Part shown: positions 7,203-38,828 of the stretch, in pieces
How the letters are laid out: each line of letters opens with the position of its first letter
Position numbering within the stretch: the first letter of the stretch is position 1
Virus record (IMG/VR): IMGVR_UViG_3300022690_000315
Span: 1 to 38,828 of that record
Length of the DNA stretch: 38,828 bases
Source: a virus
Direction: 5' to 3' (one strand)
Translations under genes and position numbers: made by a program
Notes under the pieces: model-generated
What the model was told of the DNA's origin: nothing
The model's input: the letters and a program-made list of their open reading frames with translations, nothing else
The model's database searches: none

Positions 7203-7320
7203 TTAGTTCAGAATTGGTACTTCAAAACGTGACAAGCCCTCCCCCAATGGATACACAGACGGTTATTTGTCACGGGTAGTACCAAACCTTGAACTAAGTA
7301 ATCATTAAGTCTGTGTATCC
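7203..7320 (+). ncRNA. Three-helix stem with 12-bp loop-to-tail pairing (pseudoknot leader or bistable switch)
   Basis: Three stacked 8-bp perfect helices are visible: 7203-7210/7290-7297, 7214-7221/7278-7285 and 7228-7235/7267-7274. The apical loop carries GGATACACAGAC (7249-7260), a perfect 12-bp match to GTCTGTGTATCC (7309-7320) just 3' of the stem. All pairings are Watson-Crick. Only 11 nt (7298-7308) link stem and tail, so the 12-bp helix may form instead of part of the stem, as a switch. It ends 43 nt before the LRR gene ATG at 7364, so it is most simply its 5' leader. Confidence 0.7.
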
Positions 7321-7363: not shown

Positions 7364-8320
7364 ATGAAAAATATTCTACTATTATCATTTTTGATAACAA
7401 CAAATCTATTTAGTCAAAATGTAAATATACCAGACGCTAATTTTAAATTTTATCTGGTTGGAAACAATTTAATAAATATCAACTTAGATGGTGAAATACA
7501 GGTTAGTGAGGCTACGGCATTTCCAGGAGCCATTAATGTTTCTTCTGGTGTTTCCGATTTAACAGGACTAGCAGCATTTACTTCACTTACAAGATTACAA
7601 TGTCTTTCTACTTCTCTTATTAATTTAGACCTCTCTGGTAATTTAGCACTGACAGAGTTATTTATTAATAGTAACTCTTTGGTGAGCTTGAATATTTCTA
7701 ATAATACAGCACTTGAAAAATTAGACTTATTGTTTACTCAATTAGTCAATCTTGACGTATCTAGCAACATTGCGCTTACCTATTTAAGGTTTAAAAGCAA
7801 CTATTCCCTAACCAATATAAATGTTTCCCAAAATACAGGGCTTATAGATTTAAATTGCACAAACAATTCGTTGACAAGTCTGGATGTATCCAACAATACA
7901 GCCCTTACAAATTTAGATTGCTCTGCTAATTCCTTAACCAGCCTTGATTTATCGAATAATAAGGCACTTAAAAGCGTGAAATGCATTAATAATTCGTTAA
8001 CTAGCTTAGACCTTAGAAATGGAAATAATATTTTTATGTCTGCTAATTTCGATGCAACTGGCAACTTTCTGTTTTGCATATCAGTAGACAATAAAGCATG
8101 GGCAGATGCTACTTGGGCATCTAAAAAAGACCCTGGTACAGTTTTCAGCGAAGATTGTTATGTAGGAATCAAAGAGAACCAACTAGATAACATAACTGAA
8201 GTAACTATTTACGATTTATACGGAAGAAAGGTTAATCGTGTAAATAGATTTCAGGTATATTTGGTAAGAACTAAATCAAATGGAAGGTATACAAGCAAGA
8301 AAATAGTCCAAATCAATTAA
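7364..8320 (+). CDS. Secreted leucine-rich-repeat protein with T9SS-type C-terminal sorting tail
   Basis: 318 aa. A signal peptide at 1-18 (MKNILLLSFLITTNLFSQ) is followed by the IPDANFKFYLV opening common to secreted Bacteroidota LRR proteins. About eight degenerate 20-21-residue LRRs follow (LTSLDVSNNTALTNLDCSAN type, about residues 65-220), then CISVDNKAWADATW...FSEDC, and a C-terminal segment (VTIYDLYGRKV...YLVRTKSNGRYTSKKIVQIN) matching the type A sorting domain of type IX secretion. The host would export it to its surface. It is not a structural phage gene and looks captured from a host: a moron candidate for adhesion, immunity or superinfection effects. It is preceded by its own structured leader. 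Confidence 0.85.
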   Translation: MKNILLLSFLITTNLFSQNVNIPDANFKFYLVGNNLININLDGEIQVSEATAFPGAINVSSGVSDLTGLAAFTSLTRLQCLSTSLINLDLSGNLALTELFINSNSLVSLNISNNTALEKLDLLFTQLVNLDVSSNIALTYLRFKSNYSLTNINVSQNTGLIDLNCTNNSLTSLDVSNNTALTNLDCSANSLTSLDLSNNKALKSVKCINNSLTSLDLRNGNNIFMSANFDATGNFLFCISVDNKAWADATWASKKDPGTVFSEDCYVGIKENQLDNITEVTIYDLYGRKVNRVNRFQVYLVRTKSNGRYTSKKIVQIN

Positions 8321-33156: not shown

Positions 33157-33244
33157 GTGCTGGAAAATTCAATTAAAATATTGGTAGACACATTAAGAAG
33201 GTTCTTTGGAAGCCAGCACTTCCTTCGTCGCCTTCGTGTCTACC
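33157..33244 (+). ncRNA. Pseudoknot leader element, copy 1
   Basis: Helix 1 is GTGCTGG (33157-33163) with CCAGCAC (33213-33219). Helix 2 is GGTAGACAC (33183-33191) with GTGTCTACC (33236-33244). The order 1-2-1-2 makes an H-type pseudoknot. Loops are 19 nt (AAAATTCAATTAAAATATT), 21 nt and 16 nt (contains TCCTTCGTCGC). Helix 2 ends 16 nt before ATG 33261. Copy 2 is at 38227-38328 with the same order, the same first and third loop lengths and the same ATG spacing, but different helix sequences. Confidence 0.8.
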
Positions 33245-33260
33245 TCTTTTATTATATAAG

Positions 33261-33473
33261 ATGAAAAAATTACATAACGAATTAGACAACGTAATTGATA
33301 AAATTGAGCGCAAATACGATGAGCGTCGAAATTATTGGTACGATAAAAGTGAGGCGTGGCAAGAATCAGATAAAGGTTTAGAACATGAAACAACAACAGA
33401 TGATTTAGAGATGATTCTTTGTGAATTGCGTGAAAAACGTGATGAACTTTTAGACTGGATTGAATCTAATTAA
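33261..33473 (+). CDS. Small coiled-coil protein, first gene of operon
   Basis: 70 aa, strongly charged helix pair (NELDNVIDKIERKYDERRNY, DDLEMILCELREKRDELLDW). Unknown family. Lies 16 nt downstream of the pseudoknot element, so it is the direct target of any control by that RNA. Confidence 0.65.
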   Translation: MKKLHNELDNVIDKIERKYDERRNYWYDKSEAWQESDKGLEHETTTDDLEMILCELREKRDELLDWIESN

Positions 33474-33481
33474 CTAACCTT

Positions 33482-33501
33482 CTAAGTGAATGGTCACTTA
33501 G
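33482..33501 (+). promoter_or_regulatory. Perfect 8-bp hairpin before next gene
   Basis: CTAAGTGA, loop ATGG, TCACTTAG, with no T-run. Ends 15 nt before ATG 33517, so it more likely affects translation or mRNA processing than termination. Confidence 0.6.
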
Positions 33502-33516
33502 GTAAAAACAAATAAG

Positions 33517-33780
33517 ATGAATTCTAAAGAAGGTAAGTGGGAATTAAGAAGAATGAGAACAATTGATTATAAGAATCAAGTCTTTGAACCGTCTGAATGG
33601 ATAATAAAGACAATCAATAATGGCATTGGTTCCCACGTCATTTCTTTACGGTACACAAACTCCGAAGGTAAAGTCTATGCAACTCATCCTATGTTGTTAA
33701 ATGCACCACAAGAATTAAGAATAGAATATAAATATCTCAAACGATTAATAACAGATTTAATCAAAAAAGCAACCGAATGA
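33517..33780 (+). CDS. Small early protein, unknown
   Basis: 87 aa, with strand-like WELRRMRTIDYKNQVFEPSE and a helical C-terminus (IEYKYLKRLITDLIKKATE). Overlaps the next small gene (ATGA). No family recognised. Confidence 0.55.
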   Translation: MNSKEGKWELRRMRTIDYKNQVFEPSEWIIKTINNGIGSHVISLRYTNSEGKVYATHPMLLNAPQELRIEYKYLKRLITDLIKKATE

Positions 33781-33881
33781 CCGAATTGATACCAGCCATA
33801 TTATTTGAGGCAACCGTTATCGGGTACTACTTTTTGATAAAAGAAAGTTGGATTTTATTTAAACAAATTAGAGAATTATGA
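33777..33881 (+). CDS. 34-aa single-span membrane peptide
   Basis: ATG 33777 overlaps the preceding stop (ATGA), and its own TGA (33879-33881) overlaps the next ATG (ATGA). The peptide MTELIPAILFEATVIGYYFL continues into a charged end. Double coupling and a hydrophobic centre support a real tiny membrane protein. Confidence 0.55.
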   Translation: MTELIPAILFEATVIGYYFLIKESWILFKQIREL

Positions 33882-34183
33882 AACTTGAACCGGGGCTTTA
33901 TAGACATTATTACAGTAGCACAATAACTTTAACAGCAATATTTACCATAGGTAATAAACTTGTAAATATCGAAGAGAGAACTTTGGATAAAGAATATCCT
34001 GATAAACCTAATTCTTGGTTTCATCAGAGGTTTCCAATAGACAGGATTAATTTTTCGGATAATTTGGAAAAGATTAGATGCTTAACAGATAAAGAAATAT
34101 GGATGAAATCTATTCAGTTTAAATGGGAAGATTTTAATTCCGAAGAAATATTCAATAATATGGAAAACTTAAATCTGAAATAA
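33878..34183 (+). CDS. Small early protein, unknown
   Basis: 101 aa; beta-rich start (GLYRHYYSSTITLTAIFTIG), then KPNSWFHQRFPIDRINF and an acidic end (FKWEDFNSEEIFNNMENL). No family recognised. Confidence 0.55.
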   Translation: MKLEPGLYRHYYSSTITLTAIFTIGNKLVNIEERTLDKEYPDKPNSWFHQRFPIDRINFSDNLEKIRCLTDKEIWMKSIQFKWEDFNSEEIFNNMENLNLK

Positions 34184-34195
34184 AAAAGCTATATC

Positions 34196-34435
34196 ATGAC
34201 AATGGAGAAGATGGAAATATTAACCGAGCAATCAACCGAGAACTTGTGGCAAATAGAAATTACCAGGAGGCAAATCAAGGGCAAAAAGGAGAGTATTTTA
34301 AAAAGAGAACAGCTTGGATACGATGCTGAATATTTAAGAGTACATATTGACAAGCTGGAAACCGAAAAAACCGAGTTGACAAGAAAGTACAAAGACCAAT
34401 TGAGTGAATTATTAACCCTAAGTAGTGAATTATGA
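34196..34435 (+). CDS. Small coiled-coil protein
   Basis: 79 aa, nearly all heptad-like helix (ENLWQIEITRRQIKGKKESI, VHIDKLETEKTELTRKYKDQ). Possible alternative start at the Met three codons in. Overlaps the next ATG (ATGA). Confidence 0.6.
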   Translation: MTMEKMEILTEQSTENLWQIEITRRQIKGKKESILKREQLGYDAEYLRVHIDKLETEKTELTRKYKDQLSELLTLSSEL

Positions 34436-34959
34436 AAACAGAAAAAATGGTATCGAAAATAACAAATGATTCAACCGTAAAATATTTCACAGAATTAATG
34501 GGAGATAGGTATAGTGGCCTCTTATTAGTGGGTGGGGCTGTTGTTGATATATTAGAAGGTCGAACGCCTTTGGATTATGACTTTGTGGCTGCTAGTGACG
34601 CTGATATTGATATATTCAAGTGTAACGGATTTAAGTTTGTCAGCGTTACGAAGTCGGCTATTACACTAAAAAAGCAAAAGATTGTTGTTCAGTTTTTAAC
34701 AAGAAGCCTAGTGGAATTTGATTTCAAGATAAGCCAAAGCACTTATAATTTCAGGACGAAAAAACTAACGATAGACCTAATTTCCTTTGAAGAAAAAACA
34801 TTGATTCCAACTTCTTTCATAAACGAAGAATACGCAATACGCTCTTTGGTCAGAATACCGCATTGGAGAAAGAAAGGCTATGACATAAAAGATGTCACTT
34901 ATTTAAGCCTTTTGAATGTCATTGGAACATCTAAAAGAATCGAATCAACTAAATCTTAA
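34432..34959 (+). CDS. Nucleotidyltransferase-like protein (Pol beta/CCA-type head)
   Basis: 175 aa. LLLVGGAVVDILEGRTPLDY then DFVAAS gives the GG (34-35) and DxD (D48, D50) of the Pol beta nucleotidyltransferase superfamily as in PolyA/CCA-type heads (GGaVRDlLlGr-p-DiD). A third acidic residue is not obvious; the CCA domain and other C-terminal parts are absent. May be a minimal transferase or an inactive relative. Lies among early genes. Confidence 0.65.
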   Translation: MKTEKMVSKITNDSTVKYFTELMGDRYSGLLLVGGAVVDILEGRTPLDYDFVAASDADIDIFKCNGFKFVSVTKSAITLKKQKIVVQFLTRSLVEFDFKISQSTYNFRTKKLTIDLISFEEKTLIPTSFINEEYAIRSLVRIPHWRKKGYDIKDVTYLSLLNVIGTSKRIESTKS

Positions 34960-34963
34960 TTAA

Positions 34964-35149
34964 ATGGACTACCAAGATCACATAAAACACGTCGAAGAAA
35001 GCGAAGAAACCGAAATATTCAGCGGAGTAAATAGAGATGATTTTTTCGCGTTACCGGAGCATATCAAAAGGATGGAATTAAAGCGCGACTGGTTTGTGAA
35101 AATGAGAAACTGGTTTATTAAACGAACAAAAAATTTGATACCTCTATGA
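34964..35149 (+). CDS. Small charged protein, unknown
   Basis: 61 aa; acidic N-terminus (DHIKHVEESEETEIFSG) and basic aromatic C-terminus (KRDWFVKMRNWFIKRTKN). Overlaps the next gene (ATGA). Confidence 0.55.
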   Translation: MDYQDHIKHVEESEETEIFSGVNRDDFFALPEHIKRMELKRDWFVKMRNWFIKRTKNLIPL

Positions 35150-35469
35150 AAAATCCGTATTCAATACCCGGAGTACCAAAAAAGGTCAGCATGATAGACA
35201 GAATAACTATTTATGTTTGTGAACAGCACTGTATAACCGTAAAAGATATTAAGTCTACGTGTCAGAAAAGAGCAATAATCACACCAAGACAAATTTGCAT
35301 GTACGTACTTTACAAGTACACCAGAAGCACTCTTGATTATATCGGGGAATATTACGGGAAAGATCATACTACTGTCCTGTATGGCACAAAAACTATCTCA
35401 GGTTATTTGGAAACGGACAAAAAATTAGGTGAAGAAATAGACAAAATAATTAAGCATTTTAAATTATAA
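35146..35469 (+). CDS. Stand-alone DnaA domain IV-like protein
   Basis: 107 aa. It aligns with the C-terminal DNA-binding domain of DnaA: ITVKDIKSTCQKRAIITPRQ, CMYVLYKYTRSTLDYIGEYY and GKDHTTVLYGTKTI, including the DHTTV motif (D73-V77) that reads DnaA boxes. The AAA+ ATPase domain is missing. It may bind DnaA boxes in the phage or host origin to divert or block host initiation. Which DnaA boxes matter could not be decided by eye. Confidence 0.85.
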   Translation: MKNPYSIPGVPKKVSMIDRITIYVCEQHCITVKDIKSTCQKRAIITPRQICMYVLYKYTRSTLDYIGEYYGKDHTTVLYGTKTISGYLETDKKLGEEIDKIIKHFKL

Positions 35470-35472
35470 ATA

Positions 35473-36243
35473 ATGAACGACAAAAAAGAAGAATTGGCCG
35501 TAAAGGTCACAGATAATCAAATAATGATCGCTGAGACGTTAGATAACTTCAGCGAGGCTCAGGTAGCAATTGTAAAGAATAGCGTTGCTAAGAACACCAC
35601 AAATCCCGAATTAGCCTATTTTTTGCAAGTATGCCAGACCGTTGAATTGAATCCTTTGAATAAGGAGATTTGGTGTTATAAAGACAAGAAAGGTAATTTA
35701 CTTGTATTCGCTGGGCGTGATGGTTTTCTTGCAAAGGCACAAAGAAGTCCTTTTTATAATGGGATTCGGTCATGTGAAATATGCGAACATGATGAATATG
35801 AAATCGATATTCCTAACGGAGTAGTCCATCATAAAATAACCAAAATTGGAAAGGAAAGGGGTAATATAATCGCCGCTTATGCAATTGTATTCCGAAAAGA
35901 CGGTGAATCTACTATTGAGTTCGTTGAAATGAGCGCATACAATAAAGGATTTAATGCCTGGTCATCCCATCCGGCAGATATGATTAAAAAAGTTGCCGAA
36001 ACTCATGCTCTAAAGAAAGCATTTGGGATCTCTGGACTTCAAAGCGAATACGATTACAATGTAAATAATGGTGTCGCGGTTCCTATTCAAACAAAAGTGT
36101 ACACTTTGGAAGAAATAGAATCTCTTTATGAGTTGAAAAAAGAATCATTAAGCCTTGAACAGCAATTGGAAGTTGAGGCCATCATAGAAGAAAAAGACGA
36201 AAAGAGCTATCGCAAGGTGTATGACAAATTAAGTAAACTGTAA
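35473..36243 (+). CDS. recT: RecT-family single-strand annealing protein
   Basis: 256 aa. Hallmark segments: ELAYFLQVCQTVELNPLNKE, IWCYKDKKGNLLVFAGRDGF, IGKERGNIIAAYAIVFRKDG, HPADMIKKVAETHALKKAFG and ISGLQSEYDY. It anneals complementary single strands during phage recombination. It pairs functionally with the exonuclease 240 bp downstream. Acidic C-terminal helices (VEAIIEEKDEKSYRK) resemble SSB-interaction tails only loosely. Confidence 0.93.
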   Translation: MNDKKEELAVKVTDNQIMIAETLDNFSEAQVAIVKNSVAKNTTNPELAYFLQVCQTVELNPLNKEIWCYKDKKGNLLVFAGRDGFLAKAQRSPFYNGIRSCEICEHDEYEIDIPNGVVHHKITKIGKERGNIIAAYAIVFRKDGESTIEFVEMSAYNKGFNAWSSHPADMIKKVAETHALKKAFGISGLQSEYDYNVNNGVAVPIQTKVYTLEEIESLYELKKESLSLEQQLEVEAIIEEKDEKSYRKVYDKLSKL

Positions 36244-36245
36244 TT

Positions 36246-36482
36246 ATGGAATCAAAACAAAAAGCTGTTTCGTTAATTCGCATGATGTTAATTAATGGAC
36301 AAGAACAACCTAAAGTTGGATTAGATATGCCAGAAGAATCGTGTCAAAGAGCAAAGAAATGCGCGATAAAACTTGTAGACGAAATACTTGATTTGCTTAA
36401 TCATAAAAGCACTTGGGATAATTGGTTTTATGAAGAACGTGACTATTGGAACGAAGTTAAATTACACATGCAAAAATTGTAA
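36246..36482 (+). CDS. Small protein between recT and exonuclease
   Basis: 78 aa; helical (AVSLIRMMLINGQEQPKVGL, RAKKCAIKLVDEILDLLNHK, FYEERDYWNEVKLHMQKL). A similar small gene often lies between these two genes in Bacteroidota phages. Function unknown. Confidence 0.6.
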   Translation: MESKQKAVSLIRMMLINGQEQPKVGLDMPEESCQRAKKCAIKLVDEILDLLNHKSTWDNWFYEERDYWNEVKLHMQKL

Positions 36483-36484
36483 TT

Positions 36485-37192
36485 ATGAAAGAACAAAACG
36501 CAAGACACGGTACATTCTCATCATCTGAAATTTACAAGTTAGTCAAAACTGGAAGGGCAAAAGATGCTAATTTTTATCAAACTGGATTGACTTACATTCA
36601 GGATAAACGATTTGAACAGAAGCTAGGTAAATCTCTAACGGGTGAGACAAGTGCAAAGCCGACGAATTGGGGTAAATTCATGGAGATTCGAGTATTTGAT
36701 TTGATCGACTTGAGTTATCGACTGGATTCTGAAAGAAGATTAGGACATCCAACAATTAAGGAGTGGACGGGCGCACCTGATACATTACGAGGCGAGTTCG
36801 TTGGTGACATTAAATGTCCCTGGACACTCAAATCATTTTGTGAGGCCATAGATGCGCTCGAAGAAAGTACTGAGAAATTTAAGGAAGTGAAGCCTGAATG
36901 GTATTGGCAATTGGTTTCAAATGCTATTCTCACCGGAAAGGACAAAGCTGAGATCATCATTTATGTTCCTTACTTGTCAGAACTGGAAGAAATCCGGGAA
37001 ATGGCTAACAATTACGACGGCGATCAGAACAAGATCGCTTTCATTAATTGGTCTGAAGACGAAGATTTACCTCACTTATTGGATGGTGGAGAGTACAAGA
37101 ACATCAACATCTTCGAGTTCGACGTTCCACAAGAGGACGTTGACTTTTTAACTGAACGCGTAGAAGATGCGATAAAACTATTGAAGGCATGA
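36485..37192 (+). CDS. YqaJ-type phage exonuclease (lambda Exo-like)
   Basis: 235 aa. Core motifs of the PD-(D/E)XK recombination nuclease: ARHGTFSSSEIYKL, WGKFMEIRVFD, GAPDTLRGEFVGDIKCPW (catalytic D...DxK) and WYWQLVSNAILTGKDKAEII. It resects dsDNA 5' ends to feed RecT. Confidence 0.88.
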   Translation: MKEQNARHGTFSSSEIYKLVKTGRAKDANFYQTGLTYIQDKRFEQKLGKSLTGETSAKPTNWGKFMEIRVFDLIDLSYRLDSERRLGHPTIKEWTGAPDTLRGEFVGDIKCPWTLKSFCEAIDALEESTEKFKEVKPEWYWQLVSNAILTGKDKAEIIIYVPYLSELEEIREMANNYDGDQNKIAFINWSEDEDLPHLLDGGEYKNINIFEFDVPQEDVDFLTERVEDAIKLLKA

Positions 37193-37368
37193 AAGCAATT
37201 GAAAAAACCATTATCTATACGATGGTACAAAGTGATAACCTTGAGCCTGAAATTGAAAGAGAATCCAAGGATGGATGGATAATGCAGGGCTGTGATTATG
37301 TAAAAGAAAGACATTCTCCTGAAATTCAAGCAACGGTGAAATACAGGAAAATGAGCAGAATAGATTGA
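37189..37368 (+). CDS. 59-aa protein, paralogue-like to 1885-2217
   Basis: ATG 37189 overlaps the exonuclease stop (ATGA). Sequence KTIIYTMVQSDNLEPEIERE then SKDGWIMQ shares the KTII...E-I-x2-E...GWI pattern of the 1885 protein. DUF4177-like look; function unknown. Confidence 0.6.
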   Translation: MKAIEKTIIYTMVQSDNLEPEIERESKDGWIMQGCDYVKERHSPEIQATVKYRKMSRID

Positions 37369-37391
37369 ATATTAACTATAACAATTAGATT

Positions 37392-37525
37392 ATGCAGGAA
37401 GCAAGTGCAACAACACATTTTGATATTTGGTTCGATTGCCCTTATTGTGCGAAATATGTGGTGAATATCTTGGAGATGGTTGCGGTTTTCCTGTCACTTG
37501 TGACGGATGCGGTGGTGACTGTTGA
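37392..37525 (+). pseudogene. Zinc-finger protein with apparent -1 frameshift
   Basis: Frame from ATG 37392 begins MQEASATTHFDIWFDCPYC, a zinc-knuckle opening, but then turns into an unnatural hydrophobic run continuing to 37589. One base back, the frame from 37448 reads CEICGEYLGDGCGFPVTCDG then CGGDC and stops at 37523-37525. This is exactly the missing Cys-rich second half. So the gene carries a -1 shift near 37441-37455: a mutation, sequencing error, or programmed frameshift. No classical slippery heptamer was seen. Confidence 0.6.
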
Positions 37526-37593
37526 TAAAATGTCGAAAAAACAACCATTTAGATTGATTATAAGCAAATTAACAAAACAGAGTTATTAACATT

Positions 37594-37758
37594 ATGATAG
37601 CAGACGCATATTTAGACCATGAGACTGGAAGCGCACCGACAATAGATCAGTTGCATGAATTGTGGGAAGTGTTCAACAAAAAAGGGAAAATAGTATTGGA
37701 AGCGCCGGACAAATGGAAGTTAGTCAGTAGTATATTTAAAATTGAAAATTTGAATTAA
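37594..37758 (+). CDS. 54-aa small protein, unknown
   Basis: ATG 37594 to TAA 37756-37758. The product (MIADAYLDHETGSAPTIDQL, HELWEVFNKKGKIVLEAP) has a balanced composition and lies 1 bp before the YopX gene. No family recognised. Confidence 0.5.
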   Translation: MIADAYLDHETGSAPTIDQLHELWEVFNKKGKIVLEAPDKWKLVSSIFKIENLN

Positions 37759-37759
37759 G

Positions 37760-38152
37760 ATGGAAAACAGGATTATAAAGTTTAGAGCATGGGATATTGA
37801 TAACAAAAAAATGACATTTTCGGATGCCTTTTGGATTATAACAGGAAGTGAAGTATTACTTTTAAATCCACATCACAAAGATACTACATATTACAAAGTT
37901 GAAAATTGTGAAGATGGATTTGAGATAATGCAATTCACCGGCCTCCACGACAAAAACGGAAAGGAAATCTATGAAGGGGATATATTTAAATACAAAGGTG
38001 AAATTTGGCAGATAGTTTATTATGATAAATCTGCAATGTTCGTTTTTAATCCTACTGACAAAAAAGGCAGAAAGTGTATCGTTAATTGTGGTTATGTAGA
38101 TCATGGTGAGGTAATCGGAAACGTCTTCGAAAATCAAGGATTGTTAAAATGA
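37760..38152 (+). CDS. YopX family protein
   Basis: 130 aa. IKFRAWDIDNKKMTF at the start and MQFTGLHDKNGKEIYEGDIF in the centre are the YopX signature; ends VIGNVFENQGLL. YopX proteins are common in phages and prophages, beta-barrel-like, of unknown function. Confidence 0.9.
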   Translation: MENRIIKFRAWDIDNKKMTFSDAFWIITGSEVLLLNPHHKDTTYYKVENCEDGFEIMQFTGLHDKNGKEIYEGDIFKYKGEIWQIVYYDKSAMFVFNPTDKKGRKCIVNCGYVDHGEVIGNVFENQGLLK

Positions 38153-38226
38153 TTGTTCATAACAATTCGAACGACAACTTGCGAAGGTGACAAGTAAAAT
38201 ATAGTTTAGCCAATAACTTAAAATTC

Positions 38227-38328
38227 AGCTTGACAGAATCAATTAAAAATATTGCCCACAGCAAGCCTGTAAAGGTAAATGAGTCCATAGGGGAAGTCAA
38301 GCTCTCCTTAGTTGCTTATGCTGTGGGC
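38227..38328 (+). ncRNA. Pseudoknot leader element, copy 2
   Basis: Helix 1 is AGCTTGAC (38227-38234) with GTCAAGCT (38296-38303). Helix 2 is GCCCACAGCA (38254-38263) with TGCTGTGGGC (38319-38328). The first loop is 19 nt (AGAATCAATTAAAAATATT), 14 of 19 positions equal to copy 1 without gaps. The second loop is about 32 nt and ends GGGGAA; the third contains TCCTTAGTTGC, matching copy 1. Helix 2 ends exactly 16 nt before ATG 38345. Different helix sequences with kept pairing are compensatory. Confidence 0.8.
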
Positions 38329-38344
38329 TACCTTATTTAAACCC

Positions 38345-38828
38345 ATGAAAAAAACAAAAAAAACAACATATAAGGGATTCAATGTAGATATGAAATGCAG
38401 AGGATTCCAATATAAAGTAGGCGAAGAATATGAAACCAAAGGTGCTGCAAGATGTACTAGTAATGGTTTTCATTCATGCGAAAATCCGCTAGACATATTT
38501 GGTTATTACGATCCTGCAACTTCTGTTTTTGCGGAATGTGAAGCATCTGGAGATATTGATACTGATAATAACGACACAAAGATAGCTTCTTCTAAAATTA
38601 AAATCAAAGCAAGTATGTCGCTTCATTCTATAATAGAGGCGGGTGTTGAGTTTATATTTTCCAAAGCAAAAAAAATCAATAAAAAATCCAATTCAGGTTA
38701 CAGTGGTGCTGCTTCCAATTCAGGTTACAGTGGTGCTGCTTCCAATTCAGGTTACAGTGGTGCTGCTTCCAATTCAGGTTACAGTGGTGCTGCTTCCAAT
38801 TCAGGTTACAGTGGTGCTGCTTCCAATT
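38345..38828 (+). CDS. N-terminal part of DUF7666-like repeat protein (continues at base 3)
   Basis: 161 codons up to the window end. Residues 1-110 form the DUF7666-like domain (TYKGFNVDMKCRGFQYKVGE, GFHSCENPLDIFGYYDP, SVFAECEASGDIDTD, KIKIKASMSLHSIIEAGVEF). From about 115 the 9-residue repeats begin. This is the first gene of the early operon, 16 nt after pseudoknot copy 2. The complete protein is estimated at 244 aa if the 123-bp end overlap is counted once. Confidence 0.85.
   Translation, partial: MKKTKKTTYKGFNVDMKCRGFQYKVGEEYETKGAARCTSNGFHSCENPLDIFGYYDPATSVFAECEASGDIDTDNNDTKIASSKIKIKASMSLHSIIEAGVEFIFSKAKKINKKSNSGYSGAASNSGYSGAASNSGYSGAASNSGYSGAASNSGYSGAASN
38687..38828 (+). repeat. 27-bp tandem repeat, right end
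   Basis: A 19-bp partial unit (38687-38705) is followed by four full units (38706-38813) and a 15-bp partial unit that ends the window. Bases 38706-38828 equal bases 1-123. The contig was evidently opened inside this array. Confidence 0.97.

Follow-up and report, generated by a model that had tools for sequence, protein, structure and literature searches.

A predicted pseudoknotted, terminator-like leader RNA preceding replication and recombination operons in Bacteroidota phages

Among the closest described counterparts of the leaders reported here is the CI system of phage P4, in which CI RNA pairs with seqA upstream and seqC downstream and the replication genes are stopped by premature termination, according to PMC4825925, which also calls the Gifsy-1 IsrK RNA a structural homologue of the P4 SeqA RNA. 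The likeness is threefold: in both cases a phage leader stands before replication genes, a segment in it is complementary to an upstream 5' segment, and the outcome, described there (PMC4825925) and predicted here, is that transcription stops prematurely, or that one terminator gives rise both to a short RNA and to a read-through mRNA. Unlike P4 CI, the present family has its pairing partner in the same RNA, all of its helices are predicted to coexist and the hairpin itself bears the U-tract; it belongs to phages of a different phylum, shares no sequence or Rfam match, and its predicted pairing is in cis. The intrinsic terminators and attenuators of Bacteroidota offer a second comparison, with an A-rich-footed stem followed by a U-tract, and a model of the family's stems b and x does retrieve chromosomal terminators; unlike these, the family has a loop paired to the transcript's own 5' end, specialised internal loops and a fixed loop geometry. 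Kissing loops (ColE1 RNA I/II, TAR-TAR*) likewise have an apical loop of 6-8 nt that is fully paired and stacked on its stem, but there the loop meets a second hairpin loop, whereas in the family it pairs with a linear 5' segment of its own molecule. H-type pseudoknot riboswitches (SAM-II, preQ1) share interleaved helices near the start codon and an A-rich crossing strand; the family differs in having no conserved pocket, a long rod between the helices, a fully paired apical loop and a zero 3' linker, and such riboswitches were not matched in its Rfam scans. To our knowledge, a terminator-like hairpin loop tied to the transcript 5' end has no described counterpart.

Two such leaders lie in the window, which is the entire 38,828-nt viral stretch analysed (IMG/VR record IMGVR_UViG_3300022690_000315); they and the genes behind them up to the window end are on the + strand. 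Copy 2 occupies 38227-38328, exactly where the first-pass annotation had placed it, and the interleaved helices proposed there are confirmed. Helix 1 joins 38227-38234 to 38296-38303 (8 bp) and helix 2 joins 38254-38263 to 38319-38328 (10 bp), an interleaving that makes the fold a pseudoknot; with the same scanner, none of 2000 dinucleotide-preserving shuffles of its own region reaches the combined score of the two helices, hereafter a/a' and b/b'. Upstream, 38202-38209 (TAGTTTAG) is a weak match to the Bacteroidota -7 box TAnnTTTG, with one mismatch in the six fixed bases; it is identical to the box of a related locus, L074 (L numbers denote loci), and carries a G where F. johnsoniae, as described in PMC6847099, avoids G. 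Segment a (AGCTTGAC, 38227-38234), the 5' strand of the pseudoknot helix, is followed by an A-rich first loop of 19 nt (L1, 38235-38253) and the 5' strand of stem b (38254-38263). Folding predicts an inner stem y (38279-38284 with 38314-38319) and a stem x (38288-38293 with 38305-38310, approximately TAGGGG/TCCTTA) that flanks the return strand of helix 1; since x/x' encloses this strand, a' (GTCAAGCT, 38296-38303) would be the apical loop of a long hairpin, paired with the 5' segment a. The 3' strand of stem b (38319-38328) runs into a U-rich tail (TACCTTATTT..., 38329-38345) that reaches the ATG of the next gene. With 5 T in its best 8 nt, this U-tract is weak relative to most family members, and copy 2 only weakly has the stem plus U-tract of an intrinsic terminator.

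Copy 1 (33157-33244) has the same helix order, and its a+b score is reached by 3 of 2000 dinucleotide-preserving shuffles with the same scanner. Its segment a (GTGCTGG, 33157-33163) precedes a first loop of again 19 nt (33164-33182), the 5' strand of stem b (33183-33191), a 4-nt strand of stem x (GGAA, 33208-33211, with TTCC at 33220-33223), the apical loop a' (CCAGCAC, 33213-33219) and the 3' strand of stem b (33236-33244); TCTTTTATTATATAAG then leads to the start codon at 33261. The arm that joins helix 2 to the return strand of helix 1 measures 32 nt in copy 2 and 21 nt in copy 1, as originally reported, and the suggestion that this arm is the variable part holds among window-type copies. 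The longer arm is best explained by an inserted side hairpin (38265-38276), predicted in a constrained fold with a' kept unpaired; constrained folds predict a counterpart in L074 and none in copy 1. The third loop (15/16 nt) had been regarded as a free loop, a description that has to be given up, its first part being paired with the end of the arm (x/x'). In both window copies the ATG lies 16 nt past the last helix, and neither has a canonical TAnnTTTG box. Within the wider family they are divergent members, with longer arms, non-canonical promoter boxes and, in copy 2, a weaker U-tract.

Sequence comparison places both copies in a family of predicted leaders that precede replication, helicase and recombination operons in many Bacteroidota phages. 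A typical member has a TAnnTTTG promoter and, at about +6 to +10, segment a; an A-rich strand leads from there to stem b, beyond which come the internal loop, stem x, the apical loop a' that pairs with a, the return strands x' and b', and finally a U-tract of 11 nt. Terminase relatives of the window phage supplied the first homologues (L074, L059, L065 and L067), and because the L059 and L074 elements precede a replication-type gene (the 'LPYFQFEP' type), relatives of that protein were fetched. A scan of 2.65 Mb gave 62 matches at a score of at least 51 and none in shuffled sequence, and a further 0.99 Mb gave 30 matches against 1 in shuffled sequence, the controls of these scans being dinucleotide blocks shuffled within 300-nt stretches; in both counts a contig can occur more than once, under different locus names, and removal of repeats and of rows without a U-tract leaves 42 distinct sequences. 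Counted by locus, the element accompanies a rep59-type gene in 49 of 80 cases, a relative of the window's own replication gene in 9 of 26 and a terminase relative in 10 of 60. In this survey by locus, the pattern loci L131 and L155 are probably false, and the hits in L035, L044 and L047 are scanner matches only. Most carriers are uncultivated contigs, but six of nine cultivated-phage records (five of the nine covered in part) also carry the element: Flavobacterium phages 11b, morran9-1, FCV-1 and FCOV-F4 (the last two closely related), Cellulophaga phi19:1 and Polaribacter P12002L. It was not found in Nonlabens P12024L, Riemerella RAP44 or a 12.3-kb part of Leeuwenhoekiella Arctus_1. In the morran9-1 record, the annotated small gene morran91_gp042 overlaps the RNA element (L374:5619-5762; MN812219.1 14157-14300) and may be no real gene.

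Other searches were less productive. A strict loop pattern derived from copies 1 and 2 gave six matches in viral contigs, none with the helices; among the matches listed for a looser pattern from L059, almost all were chance occurrences in coding sequence. BLASTN of the L059 and L067 elements against phages gave no match, and L075 was rejected as chance together with other low-scoring interleaved repeats. An alignment of the replication protein searched against 84,980 species genomes retrieved one relative, without the element, and a search with the protein in 395 Bacteroidota genomes gave two matches.

The predicted helices are supported by covariation. In an alignment of 12 leaders from one subfamily (A5), 99.6% of 279 cells are paired under a structure of a, b and x specified by hand, and 18 of 24 pairs have changed on both sides (6 of 8 in a/a', 8 of 12 in b/b' and all 4 in x/x'); the covariation score is 0.713, compared with 0.208 for shuffled and at most 0.161 for slid alignments. 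L292 and L296, one column out of register in alignment A2, were excluded from these rows, and L302 and L299 were added. RNAalifold, with no structure supplied, recovers b and x. The scanner required complementarity in a and b, so their pairing signal is partly there by construction; x, which entered only as a score bonus, the U-tract and the loop geometry are less affected by this selection. Another subfamily swaps b from GGCTTT/AAAGCC to GCCTTT/AAAGGC, and among five near-identical leaders the sole change in a (TGTGCCC to TGTGCGC) is matched in the a' of L291, a single compensated pair swap relative to L269, and left unmatched in L267, whose broken a/a' pair counts against this reading. Helix sequences thus vary freely with compensation, which agrees with the earlier suggestion that helices serve as a scaffold. 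A covariance model of b and x without the pseudoknot (R1) recovers five members on which it was not trained (E 2.9e-11 to 7.5e-4); in 395 Bacteroidota genomes it gives only two weak matches, both resembling ordinary intrinsic terminators without the pseudoknot, in a chromosome scan that covers one subfamily under strict filters.

The geometry of the loop indicates, on comparison of the sequences, that a/a' and x/x' exist at once. The linker from a' to x' is 0 nt in 29 of 33 elements (two of 35 lack a usable x and are omitted), and the total linker rises with the length of a/a' (rho 0.69 over the 33 elements, whose kinship makes p-values approximate), from 0 for 6 bp through mostly 0-1 for 7 bp to mostly 2 for 8 bp. 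Linkers of this kind are what a loop helix would need if it stacked on its own stem and crossed the deep groove, as in kissing-loop geometry, and mutual exclusion of the two helices gives no reason for such order. In 31 of 35 elements, 19-23 nt separate a' from the foot of b, a range that the window copies and L074 exceed because of their extra stems. A candidate relation between the length of L1 and that of the rod was rejected (rho 0.13).

The internal loop between b and x exists in several forms: AGUA/GAA (L245, L236, L263, L242 and L305), which we take to be a bulged-G or loop-E motif; a strand-exchanged version, GAAA/GAGUA (L278, L272 and L294); and UGAA/GGAU (L274, L276, L271 and others), which presumably forms tandem G-A pairs. 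This bears on two proposals. First, the loops had been suggested to be a single conserved surface recognised by a factor or ligand, and this does not survive the comparison: both the first-loop sequence and the internal-loop module differ across subfamilies. The A-richness of the first loop, also part of that suggestion, is retained, although its sequence is not. Second, a pseudoknot and a terminator in a 5' leader are a common riboswitch layout, and the element could be a metabolite riboswitch with a pseudoknotted aptamer. We consider this highly improbable: the three internal loops interchange, no set of loop bases is invariant across subfamilies, and the downstream genes of known class are phage replication and recombination genes. 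What is conserved, as judged from the aligned leaders, is an architecture: where a sits, close to the predicted start of the transcript, how a' joins x', how long the rod is, and the presence of the U-tract.

Selection by promoter box, a and b alone yields 46 distinct elements and 3 in shuffled sequence, the control again being dinucleotide blocks shuffled within 300-nt stretches. The TAnnTTTG box was required in this set; an exact box is also found upstream of most of the 42 catalogued elements, where it merely added score. In 40 of the 46, the start of a is located 9-13 nt past the -7 box. In F. johnsoniae the G of the box is placed at -5 in PMC6847099, and PMC9723704 gives the box position likewise, so that a would start near +6 to +10. 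A -33 box is only weakly apparent: TTG stands 19-23 nt upstream in 11 counts over 35 elements. This closeness of a to the predicted 5' end, and its pairing into a rod of near-constant length, would also suit an mRNA stabiliser, a fold that locks the 5' end and shields early mRNAs from end-dependent decay, with the U-tract incidental or a weak terminator. Such a role appears unlikely, however, since it leaves two features unexplained: the sharply bounded 11-nt U-tract beside stem b, and the absence of the element at other promoters of the same phage group. As to the first, 42 of the 46 elements have 5 T or more in the best 8-nt stretch behind the stem, compared with 2 of 13 shuffled matches at a lower score cut. 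Counted from the last G-C pair in 35 distinct elements already selected for U, the T frequency by position is 74, 94, 97, 80, 86, 69, 49, 57, 89, 86 and 60%, then 20%; the 4 of 46 elements with fewer than 5 T in 8 are left out of this profile and of the linker and second-copy counts. The median MFE of the hairpin is -18 kcal/mol (n=42). As to the second, other promoters in the L059 phage group (L096, L227 and L230; TTTG..TACATTTG) have short unstructured leaders ending in ACAGAGAAAATG or similar, and these plain leaders mean that the element marks one or two early operons and not all promoters.

The distance to the start codon is far less constant. The ATG lies 8 to about 60 nt from the element, and in several members a second small hairpin stands between the two, so that the conserved ATG spacing inferred from the two window copies does not extend to the family. 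The same range bears on translational control, in which a stable structure by the start codon, alone or bound by a protein, would tune non-Shine-Dalgarno initiation. The ATG does lie within 8-28 nt in many members, including the 16 nt of both window copies, and in Flavobacterium mRNA structure around the start codon tunes initiation, as described in PMC6847099; yet the start codon moves and a hairpin can be inserted while the U-tract stays put, and we regard this explanation as quite unlikely. From this pattern across the aligned leaders we conclude that stem b and the U-tract are terminator-like and that ATG distance is not the selected feature. A leader peptide was rejected as well: a reading frame spans the L059 leader, but by eye its openness differs between L067 and L066, and the helices explain the conservation.

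The second hairpins form a type of their own (TAGTTTATCGGTAGCTTAAAACCG), found between the U-tract and the ATG in L334, L374, L332, L335, L106, L304 and L061, about 15-45 nt past the element. Their stem covaries by eye (CGGT/ACCG, CCGT/ACGG, AGGT/ACCT), and the products of the genes behind them begin MA(K/N), with a common ELK(F)-like start.

The interpretation that we favour, with a little better than even confidence, is that the element is a 5'-end-locked intrinsic terminator, an attenuator or terminated leader RNA, controlling early operons. As the 5' leader of early replication or recombination operons, it would fold into a rod of stem b, internal loop and stem x, whose apical loop a' would pair in full with segment a close to the predicted transcript 5' end, with the A-rich L1 returning alongside the rod. 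Stem b and the 11-nt U-tract would form an intrinsic terminator about 100 nt past the start site and ahead of the first gene, where RNA polymerase would either release a structured leader RNA of about 100 nt or read through into the operon; the balance between release and read-through would be set by the terminator loop as it captures the 5' end of its own transcript. The element would in this way probably decide whether the replication and recombination genes are read. Comparison of the leaders supports the three predicted helices and their coexistence, as well as the U-tract and a location between promoter and operon; termination at the U-tract, its regulation and a trigger for read-through belong to the predicted part of the model. 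Against it, no conserved alternative antiterminator helix was found in the family leaders, a/a' looks able to form together with the terminator and not in its place, and the window copies have no canonical promoter box and, in copy 2, a weak U-tract.

The terminated leader might instead act in trans in the manner of P4 CI RNA, as a small RNA controlling copy number or superinfection, with a' pairing to a, or to a second copy of a, in other nascent leaders and forcing termination of the replication operon. This analogy with P4 gains from the position of a upstream of a', like that of seqA in P4, and from a second copy of at least 6 nt of a located 5-160 nt after b' in 8 of 35 elements, where 2.1 are expected (reached in 0 of 300 permutations, with four distance ranges tried). 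One leader variant (L283:2373-2560) combines a 10-bp a/a' with a long L1, and 9 nt of a recur in it as a third copy right before the ATG (GACGTGCAACAATG). Against it, 27 of the 35 elements have no second copy in that range and pairing in cis accounts for the covariation, and we hold an action of this kind to be decidedly improbable. Several carriers (FCV-1 and P12002L) are presumably virulent, so lysogenic immunity cannot be a general role of the element. To return to the 5'-end-locked terminator, a bolder extension would be a private code, in which the terminator loop of each operon recognises its own transcript 5' end and the terminated leader, about 100 nt long, has a further action in trans on other copies of the genome. 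This is a long shot; if true, it would amount to RNA-coded dosage control of the replication operon and possibly to exclusion of related Bacteroidota phages.

Behind copy 1, same-strand genes that would form one operon occupy 33261-38152, starting with a 70-aa orphan for which no relatives were found and including a RecT-like annealing protein gene (35473-36243), an exonuclease-like gene (36485-37192) and, last, a YopX gene (37760-38152). Within the latter, 59 nt (37928-37986) have 86% identity to Brevibacillus phages and 84% to Streptococcus phages, which is unusually high across phyla. The gene behind copy 2 (38346-38827, running off the window end) is DUF7666, as first proposed (Pfam PF24703, E 4.7e-35). 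The proposed link between the element and DUF7666 genes fails in other phages, where homologous leaders were looked for and the element was present at none of seven DUF7666 relatives. What the element heads is operons, and in the window DUF7666 simply opens a run of genes extending to a replication O-like one: the gene appears to continue at 3-374, followed by 389-631 and then by a gene at 635-1426 that matches 'replication initiation O-like' (E 8e-4). Continuity across the window ends is deduced from a 123-base end repeat (1-123 and 38706-38828), which itself lies within a tandem repeat of the DUF7666 gene, so that assembly could account both for the seeming circularity and for the number of repeats. 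The L059 phage has one element in front of a helicase gene and a second in front of rep59, a gene with a weak match to 'primosomal protein'; in P12002L the element is directly upstream of a gene annotated 'replication protein'.

Rfam 15 gave no match in the window at the gathering threshold and no match to the element at ten member-bearing loci, where the one match, DUF805b RNA at L278:101-135, lies outside the element; when the leaders of copy 2, L278 and L274 were scanned permissively, all matches stayed below threshold. In the open-licence literature on leaders, terminators and transcription of Bacteroidetes, Flavobacterium and Cellulophaga phages, no description of such a leader was found. 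The element may therefore be a previously uncatalogued RNA structure of a known kind, the structured phage leader or attenuator, and an earlier description outside the open-licence literature is possible. Early-gene control in Bacteroidota viruses is little known, and the literature searched yielded nothing on the subject; here a strongly covarying RNA architecture sits at the replication and recombination operons of diverse phages, cultivated ones included, and existing phage-host pairs make direct testing feasible.

The window contains another interleaved repeat, at 7203-7320, with three nested 8-bp arms around a loop in which a 12-nt segment (GGATACACAGAC) is complementary to a downstream 12-mer. 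Its topology is unlike that of the leader family, and it precedes a gene at 7364 whose product is, by eye, repetitive and leucine-rich-repeat-like.
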